From positions 1 through 64,000 of the forward strand of contig JADZEM010000217.1 in the NCBI GenBank assembly GCA_020850535.1: a DNA stretch of 64,000 nt, read 5' to 3'. The notes below the pieces were generated by a model, which made no database searches, was not told the DNA's origin, and worked only from the letters and a program-made list of their open reading frames with translations. Below, piece after piece: positions 9,107-10,923 of the stretch. The translations under genes and the position numbers were made by a program. The DNA is from Chloroflexota bacterium. Its GTDB lineage: Bacteria; Chloroflexota; UBA6077; JACCZL01. Position 1 is the stretch's first letter. Every line of letters begins with the position of its first letter.

Positions 9107-9139
9107 ACGACCCCGGCAACGAGCTGTCGCCGGGGTCGT
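9107..9139 (-). terminator. Hairpin terminator after the Rad52-like gene
   Basis: An 11-bp perfect stem, ACGACCCCGGC with GCCGGGGTCGT, begins about 54 bases past the stop of the Rad52-like gene. The tail on the minus strand is only TTCTG, but the stem is very stable. It separates this gene from the guaB promoter. Confidence 0.6.
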
Positions 9140-9192: not shown

Positions 9193-10128
9193 TTAGAACG
9201 GCACCTGCTGGAGCGCCTCATCGGCGCGCCGCTTCGCCTGGTTGGCCTCGCGGTAGTGCATCATGCAGAGCACCCGGCTGTGCTTGCGCCGCCCGAACAC
9301 GGCAAGCTGACTCGGAGGCCAGTTCGTGCCGTCCTTGAAGCGGGTCTCGGTCAGCGGCTCGCCGCACTCCTCGCAGGCGTAGACCTCCGAGTCGGACGGG
9401 GCCGCCGCGCCGCCCCCCACGATCTGCACGCCGTTCTGGCCGCTGCCGTTCGGGCCGTAGCCGCCCTGGCCGCTCCCGTTGGAGCCGCCGCCATTTCCGT
9501 ACGAGCCGTTCCCATTGCCCGAGTAGCCCGCCCCCGGCTGCCCGCCGTTCCCCAGCCCGGCCGGCGGCTCCTTCTTCCAGAGGTACAGCCCGACGCCCAC
9601 CAGCGAGGCGCACTTCTTGAGCGCGTCCGTCGCCGCGCCCTTCAGATCAAACCCGATGTCCATCGGCGTGCCGCTCGAACGCGAGCGCTTGACCTTCTGG
9701 CTGCCGAACTGCTGCCGCACGACGCTCCGGCCGGCCACGTCCACCGTCAACTCGCCTAGCACCCAGCACTCATCGGCCTCGGCGTGGATGCCGTGCTCCA
9801 GCACCCGGAAGCTCCAGGCCAGAAAGCCCAGCTCCTCGTTGAGGCGCGTCGCCACCTGTTCGCCGGTCACGTACTCCAGCTCGACGCCGCCCCGCAGATC
9901 GCGGAACGTCACATCGAACGGCGTGGCAAGGCGGGCGTACAGCTCAGACTCGGGCGGGCTGCTCTCGGGGCGACCGGACAGCGCGGCCACCATCGGCTCG
10001 TCCTCCTCGGGCGTGAACGGCGTCAGACCGTCGATCTCCGCCGCCTGCTCCGCCGCCTGCTCGGCCGCTGTCGGCGCATCCTGGCGCTCGACAGTCTCGG
10101 CGCTCTTCCCGCGTGCTCGCTTCTCCAT
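9193..10128 (-). CDS. Rad52/DdrA-like single-strand annealing protein
   Basis: A 311-residue protein. Residues about 60-205 fit the Rad52/Rad22/DdrA fold: FRDLRGGVELEYVTGEQVAT, LNEELGFLAWSF, then the signature GAATDALKKCASLVGVGLYL, close to the DdrA equivalent. The family binds single-stranded DNA ends and promotes annealing during repair. A Gly/Asn/Ser-rich linker (about 210-250) follows, then a zinc-ribbon-like tail with CEECGEPLTE and a later CMMHY. ATG 10128 is chosen because GGGAG lies seven bases ahead; ATG 10134 is too close to it. Upstream reading only enters repeats. Promoter and SOS box are described separately. The linker and Cys-rich tail are unusual additions to the core. Confidence 0.85.
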   Translation of the reverse strand: MEKRARGKSAETVERQDAPTAAEQAAEQAAEIDGLTPFTPEEDEPMVAALSGRPESSPPESELYARLATPFDVTFRDLRGGVELEYVTGEQVATRLNEELGFLAWSFRVLEHGIHAEADECWVLGELTVDVAGRSVVRQQFGSQKVKRSRSSGTPMDIGFDLKGAATDALKKCASLVGVGLYLWKKEPPAGLGNGGQPGAGYSGNGNGSYGNGGGSNGSGQGGYGPNGSGQNGVQIVGGGAAAPSDSEVYACEECGEPLTETRFKDGTNWPPSQLAVFGRRKHSRVLCMMHYREANQAKRRADEALQQVPF

Positions 10129-10200
10129 CACCATGCTCCCGATTCCCCCGCCGCACAGGTCGGCAGGTTCCCACAACACACCGCCACCAGGAGTGGCGTC

Positions 10201-10212
10201 GAACGTCTGTTC
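10201..10212 (-). promoter_or_regulatory. LexA/SOS box of the Rad52-like gene
   Basis: The sequence GAACGTCTGTTC is an exact GAAC-N4-GTTC palindrome, the SOS box core known from Bacillus and Actinobacteria LexA. It starts about nine bases downstream of the -10 element, at the predicted transcription start, where a bound repressor would block initiation. Confidence 0.75.
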
Positions 10213-10220
10213 TATATCGA

Positions 10221-10249
10221 AGTATACTCCTCCTGCCCATACGGTGCAA
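10221..10249 (-). promoter_or_regulatory. Strong promoter of the Rad52-like gene
   Basis: On the minus strand TTGCAC (10249-10244) and TATACT (10226-10221) are exactly 17 bases apart. This gives a start near 10214 and a leader of about 85 nt. Confidence 0.75.
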
Positions 10250-10268: not shown

Positions 10269-10466
10269 AGGCCGATTGCATGTTGATGTCGTCGTGCCGC
10301 CGCGTCGGGGCTTGAAAGCCCCGCCTACCATCCTGCTGTCGCTGCGCGACGCTGTAGTCGCACCAGTGCCGGCCGTTCCCGACGGCGTGACTGTAGGCGG
10401 GGACTTCAACCCCCGACCGCCCGTTCCATGATCCTTCGGGGACACCAATGCACATGCAATCGCCCT
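10269..10466 (+). repeat. Family A palindromic element, tandem unit 1
   Basis: The unit begins AGGCCGATTGCATG and ends CATGCAATCGCCCT, near-perfect terminal inverted repeats. It holds GTCGGGGCTTGAAAGCCCCG near its left side and GTAGGCGGGGACTTCAACCC near its right, so nested dyads fill nearly the whole unit. It is about 198 bp and noncoding. Confidence 0.8.
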
Positions 10467-10480
10467 GCTGCTGCTACCAG

Positions 10481-10696
10481 TGCAATCGTATGTTGATGTC
10501 GTCGTGCCGCTGCGTCGGGGCTTGAAAGCCCCGCCTACGATCCTGCTGTCGCTGCGCGACGCTCCAGTCGCACCAGTGCCGGCCGTTCCCCACCGCCGTC
10601 GCGCAGCGACGGCGTGACTGTAGGCGGGGACTTCAGTCCCCGACCTCGCGTGTGACGGTGCCTCGGGAGCACCAACAGACATGCAGCAATCGCCCT
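10481..10696 (+). repeat. Family A palindromic element, tandem unit 2
   Basis: This is a second copy of the same unit. The left end has drifted to TGCAATCGTATG, and the right end reads GCAGCAATCGCCCT. The central dyads, the GTCGCGCAGCGACGG hairpin half and the GTAGGCGGGGACTTCAGTCC segment are kept. It is preceded by a short spacer, CTGCTACCAG, that recurs before unit 3. Confidence 0.8.
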
Positions 10697-10710: not shown

Positions 10711-10923
10711 TGCAATCGTATGTTGAGCGCGTCGTGCCGCTGCGTCGGGGCTTGAAAGCCCCGCCTACCATCCTGCTGTCGCTGCGCGACGCTCCAGTCG
10801 CACCAGTGCCTGCCGTTCCCGACGGCCGTCGCGCAGCGACGGTGTGACTGTAGGCGGGGACTTCAGTCCCCGACCTCGCGTGTGACGGTGTCTCGGGAGC
10901 ACCAACAGACATGCAATCGCCCT
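10711..10923 (+). repeat. Family A palindromic element, tandem unit 3
   Basis: The third copy is almost identical to unit 2 (TGCAATCGTATGTTGAGCGC at the left, CATGCAATCGCCCT at the right). Similarity between units 2 and 3, including the shared spacer, points to recent tandem duplication. It ends about 100 bases before tRNA-Gly. Confidence 0.8.

Follow-up and report, generated by a model that had tools for sequence, protein, structure and literature searches.

A gene on the minus strand of the window, by which we mean the whole 64,000-nt stretch of Chloroflexota contig JADZEM010000217.1 analysed here, encodes a chromosomal Rad52-superfamily protein with kin in phages. We consider it probable (at roughly 0.7) that it is a single-strand annealing protein (SSAP) which one Chloroflexota order has in its SOS regulon and which acts in strand annealing or end protection after DNA damage.

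The coding sequence (9193 to 10134, minus strand; 313 residues) likely starts with the ATG at 10134, or else at 10128, ends at 9193, and comprises a Rad52/Rad22-family domain, a linker and a C-terminal Cys/His tail. The Rad52-type annealing domain covers approximately residues 62–189 (9568 to 9951, minus strand), and the Pfam profile Rad52_Rad22 (PF04098) matched residues 71–189 with 28.6 bits against a cut-off of 20.3. This gene was the only PF04098 match in its own 7.65-Mb genome (29.9 bits in the genome search), and among 14 control genomes the profile matched only in Thermus and Deinobacterium. In the PDB, a search with the single sequence returned only low-complexity matches to the linker and the Cys motifs, and a profile search reached RAD52 only at E ~0.03; the likeness to RAD52 structures is therefore carried by the fold comparison. 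The AF2 model, of low overall confidence (pTM 0.43) and with disordered ends, has a helix (residues 91–102), three strands (107–117, 122–133 and 136–147) and a long helix (160–188) with pLDDT values of ~88–96 over residues 91–180, and thus contains the core beta-beta-beta-alpha annealing fold. Comparison of this model with PDB folds gave 15 matches at E ≤ 0.001, all of them RAD52 or yeast Mgm101, the top ones with E values from 2.6e-6 to 2.2e-4 and with moderate TM-scores to RAD52 (0.39–0.55, depending on the target). The sequence-only reading had placed the domain in the Rad52 superfamily and had proposed a structure-based search, and both the Pfam score and all 15 fold matches bear this assignment out.

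Upstream of the gene, on the minus strand, lies a proposed −35 element, TTGCAC (10244 to 10249), which is weak (three of six positions matching TTGACA) and was unscored in the promoter scan, followed after a 17-nt spacer by the −10 element TATACT (10221 to 10226; five of six positions matching TATAAT). The −10 element stands 8 nt ahead of a predicted LexA box, GAACAGACGTTC (10201 to 10212, minus strand), which lies at the predicted transcription start and leaves a leader of ~66 nt to the ATG at 10134. A re-reading of the sequence located the promoter and the box exactly where they had first been noticed. Taken singly, the box is at chance level: the window holds one perfect GAACN4GTTC and 39 of 100 shuffles hold at least one as well, and the genome-wide number of perfect sites is 57 versus 56 in a reversed control. 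Its significance comes from conservation, as described below. At the other end of the gene, 3' of the stop codon, an 11-bp GC-rich hairpin read directly from the sequence (9107 to 9139, minus strand) could serve as a terminator; it has no strong T run and was not reported by the same scan that left the −35 element unscored. The region closely upstream of the gene also contains several copies of a palindromic repeat core, GTAGGCGGGGCTTTCAAGCCCCGAC, which is found in the window at 90–114, 10304–10328, 10393–10417, 10514–10538 and 10744–10768. With up to two mismatches and on both strands, this core occurs 459 times in the genome and 0 times in the control, often in pairs ~227 bp apart and also near contig ends, and looks like a family of REP-type dispersed elements.

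An ortholog search covering 60 relatives turned up nine further genomes with the gene, all of the same order, the window copy being the tenth. In every one of the ten orthologs, a perfect GAAC-N4-GTTC lies at the corresponding point of the promoter, directly 3' of a −10-like element and, except in genomes G003 and G009, 30–91 bp ahead of the assigned start; TATAAT-, TATACT- or TACACT-like elements occupy a similar place in most of them. When the promoters were aligned on the box, the half-sites were 100% identical in all pairs, with flank identity averaging 29% on the upstream side (−50 to about −16) and 31% on the downstream side. The ten promoters share descent and are hence non-independent; their flanks, however, are randomised, and a perfect box is expected by chance only ~0.001 times per 150 bp. 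Because it has been kept in all ten orthologs amid flanks of ~30% identity, we regard the box as significant. In G003 and G009 (promoters among loci L024, L026 and L027) the box overlaps the ATG start codon (GAACAGATGTTC), implying, from the sequence, a leaderless or near-leaderless message, and the box of G010 contains an in-frame ATG.

The same box precedes the repressor gene itself. The lexA gene of the same genome (contig C71) has GAACGCCTGTTC 48 bp upstream, and a perfect GAACN4GTTC stands upstream of every one of the 15 lexA genes examined in the order, 35–140 bp before the matched LexA domain. The recA gene has GAACAGACGTGC, with one mismatch, directly ahead of TATAAT; the proposed check on whether lexA and recA share the box thus comes out positive for lexA, and for recA only in imperfect form. 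A survey of about 50 of the 57 genomic sites, made manually and with a simple gene-calling program, also placed boxes ahead of dnaE (PHP and DNA polymerase III alpha domains; L004:1501, G000:C16:49401) and of a gene for a PolX-like HHH_8/HHH_5 protein (L105:1690, G000:C154:19089). Another box lies ahead of a gene that, by eye, looks like the phage Gp37/DUF5131 type (L096:1768, G000:C114:19567). Judging from these sites, the three genes are likely further SOS genes of this genome. This same motif has been reported from Bacillus and Gram-positives (PMC3323433). Our literature search, which covered few subscription journals, found no paper on a GAACN4GTTC box in Chloroflexota, no description of a Rad52 homologue controlled by LexA and no paper describing the tail discussed below. 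LexA control of the window gene, as the sequence-only reading had predicted, is very likely because of the ten ortholog boxes out of ten and the 15 lexA boxes out of 15.

Outside the order, the proteins nearest to it in sequence are those of phages. A full-length scan of viral contigs (IMG/VR) gave 157 relatives, the best of which, on L131, is 65% identical, carries the tail and is encoded on a phage contig with a terminase, a DnaB-like helicase and a Holliday junction resolvase. Tails of the CxxC...CxxC/H form are also present on the proteins of L133, L135, L137, L138, L143, L144 and L177, with a near variant on L134, and in tailed proteins of both the Rad52-like and the Erf type, among them an Erf protein of Dulem virus 33 (XCD07566.1), the tail gives a match to the C-terminus of phrog_13782; a scan of viral contigs with the tail only gave no confirmed match. 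In a related Chloroflexota genome, a protein at L075 (G017:C26:347-526) has an Erf-like stretch and, after a Gly/Asn-rich linker, the same Cys tail, as identified by profile. The idea that the architecture is unique was accordingly rejected, since phage proteins share the layout and tailed Erf proteins exist; the earlier statement that no described example was known is too strong for the sequence databases. The stretch of L131 examined (9.8 kb) contains no perfect box; we found none at the gene in the phage loci inspected, and no relatives in a plasmid search. A tree with little resolution within the key clade and no Deinococcus DdrA row placed the ten orthologs in one supported set (98/87) together with seven proteins of phages and a single row on a long branch, which supports gene exchange between phages and host in either direction.

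The setting of the gene is chromosomal. The window copy adjoins guaB, guaA, purB and purC (so named after inspection of their translations), the G002 ortholog adjoins the same four genes, and the G001 ortholog adjoins the same aminotransferase gene that flanks the window copy. No phage genes are evident near the gene in the window, G001 or G002, and the gene does not lie in a prophage there. A family profile search found the gene in 10 of the 16 genomes of the order. It was not found in the other six, one of which is 97% complete, and is therefore not essential; in G013, whose assembly lacks the gene, gene C (see below) lies at a contig edge, so a missing piece is possible. Among 400 genomes sampled phylum-wide, weak matches (E ~1e-4), some of them to the tail only, came from five that lie outside the order; a scan of the genome collection with the single protein gave no matches, whereas a scan with the alignment succeeded. 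More distant bacterial Rad52 relatives that we inspected (Methylomirabilis, Deltaproteobacteria, Bacteroidota and others) have neither the Cys tail nor a box at the gene. In G003, G006, G008, G009 and G011, two small genes come after the Rad52 gene, namely B (~84 residues, with a weak winged-helix match) and C (~93 residues, with no Pfam match), located at L216:5093-5621, L213:10141-10676, L215:9000-9697, L219 ~700-1250 and L036. Gene C also lies downstream in G007, on the tail-bearing contig, and in family f1 it lies elsewhere, with no box in the stretch inspected. It is present in 13 of the 16 genomes of the order and may represent a new repair-associated family.

Beyond the annealing domain, a Gly/Asn/Ser-rich linker (approximately residues 190–248; 9391 to 9567, minus strand) is predicted to be disordered over residues 194–248 and varies in length and sequence between orthologs. 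It leads to the C-terminal tail (residues 249–313; 9196 to 9390, minus strand), which contains CEEC (254–257) and CMMH (290–293) and ends in VPF. The Rad52-type motif, the Gly/Asn/Ser linker and the paired Cys motifs of the first description are thus real, with CMMH as the second motif. C254, C257, C290 and H293 are invariant in the seven full-length orthologs and are also present in a fragment from G007. The tail model consists of the CxxC motif, short strands, a helix and then the CxxH motif, which opens a long helix; compared with the PDB it gave no match at E ≤ 0.001 (the best were RING/U-box chains, E 0.45), and homologous phage proteins showed weak Pfam treble-clef matches below the cut-off. 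Of the proposed zinc-ribbon-like tail, the paired CxxC and CxxH motifs stand; the zinc-ribbon label is uncertain, since the elements are predicted in an order nearer to that of a treble clef and the tail model matches no PDB entry significantly. We read the tail as an accessory module that probably binds metal. The orthologs of G003 and G009 end right after the Rad52 domain, yet they retain the box; the tail is therefore dispensable in nature.

A similarity of this tail to that of SSB had also been proposed, and a strict form of this idea, in which the terminal VPF mimics the SSB tail and recruits SSB's clients, draws on the VPF, MPF or APF ends of five of the eight tails with a known end and on an SSB of the same genome that ends in DDELPF. 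This is a hint only. The tails of G007, G010 and G011 do not end in PF, PF is absent from the phage tails, and the residues before PF are predicted to be helical and include QQ or EE, unlike the flexible acidic run of SSB; mimicry of this kind seems to us rather doubtful. As for the box, it might be coincidental and the gene outside LexA control, as the control-level genomic count and the lone box in the window, expected by chance, would allow. This explanation, plausible from the window alone, was discarded on the ortholog conservation: ten of ten boxes at the same position in otherwise unalignable promoter DNA, where ~0.001 are expected per 150 bp, together with the shared box of the lexA genes, leave a coincidence already very unlikely, and we attach almost no weight to it.

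The main rival to annealing is end protection, according to which the gene would encode a LexA-controlled, DdrA-like protein that shields single-stranded 3' ends from nucleases and does no annealing of its own. DdrA, a Rad52 homologue and the best-known relative in bacteria, binds to 3' ends and protects them, but no annealing by it was detected in vitro (PMC515370); the protein is part of the Deinococcus radiation-response regulon that is controlled by DdrO (PMC8533742, PMC8072749). The PF04098 matches in the Deinobacterium and Thermus controls fit with this as well. However, the closest relatives outside the order are phage proteins in replication and recombination neighbourhoods, as in L131 with its helicase and resolvase, settings in which the superfamily is known for annealing; protection with no annealing at all is, in our judgement, unlikely. 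Phage kinship and the shared tail module could instead mark the gene as a leftover of an old prophage, an annealing gene that kept its SOS-type promoter and has no host function, and temperate phages are often damage-induced. Against such a relic stand the occurrence of the gene in 10 of 16 genomes, the G002 copy next to the guaB-guaA-purB-purC genes that the window copy also adjoins, the conservation of domain and box next to randomised flanks, and the lack of a perfect box in the examined part of L131, and we give it only a slim chance.

The reading we prefer, a host SSAP under SOS control, suggests the following sequence of events. In the undamaged cell, LexA bound to GAAC-N4-GTTC at the transcription start would block the promoter. 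LexA repressors leave such operators after RecA activation; DNA damage would thus lead to RecA-triggered loss of LexA and to firing of the gene. Once made, the protein would assemble into rings or filaments on single-stranded ends and, working alongside RecA, would anneal complementary strands or protect them, annealing of complementary strands being an established role of Rad52-superfamily SSAPs. The disordered linker and the CxxC...CxxH tail may bind metal and dock to a partner or to DNA; C-terminal regions of SSAPs in this superfamily are unneeded for annealing and serve interactions with partner proteins (PMC11783212). The gene itself may have been exchanged with phages and then retained by the host. 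A more specific version, which we put forward tentatively and at less than even odds, is that a captured phage-type Rad52 recombinase was made into an SOS gene, in several lineages the first of an operon with the winged-helix-like B and the helical C, and provides LexA-switched annealing beside RecA, with a metal-binding tail, shared with phages, that docks it to repair partners.

Among known systems, DdrA of Deinococcus radiodurans (DR0423) resembles the window protein in being a chromosomal bacterial Rad52-family protein of a DNA-damage regulon, which for the window gene is predicted. DdrA is under DdrO/RDRM, and reportedly DdrI too, whereas the window gene has a LexA-type box; the passages on DdrA that we consulted describe no Cys/His tail, which the window protein has. 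The window protein groups with phage proteins in a tree that held no DdrA, so that its likeness to DdrA is one of family level. Phage Rad52-like SSAPs (the phrog_37405 group; Polaribacter phages P12002L/S; L131, L133, L135, L137 and L143) have a homologous annealing domain, and several of those in IMG/VR share the linker and the CxxC...CxxC/H tail, but they are phage-encoded and without a perfect LexA box in the inspected loci, whereas the window gene sits in the chromosome behind an SOS box. Human RAD52 and yeast Mgm101 share the predicted fold of the domain at 14–20% identity and have no C-terminal regions in common with it. Erf-type SSAPs (Dulem virus 33, in which the tail is the C-terminal part of phrog_13782, and L075) have the same tail module on another annealing-domain family (Pfam ERF).

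SSAPs have been studied mostly in phages and eukaryotes, and DdrA, which is under another repressor, is the main damage-regulated bacterial example of the SSAP type. The natural tail-less orthologs make the role of the tail directly testable, and the comparison exposes a tail module common to different annealing families. If our reading is true, bacteria can place an annealing pathway under direct SOS control.
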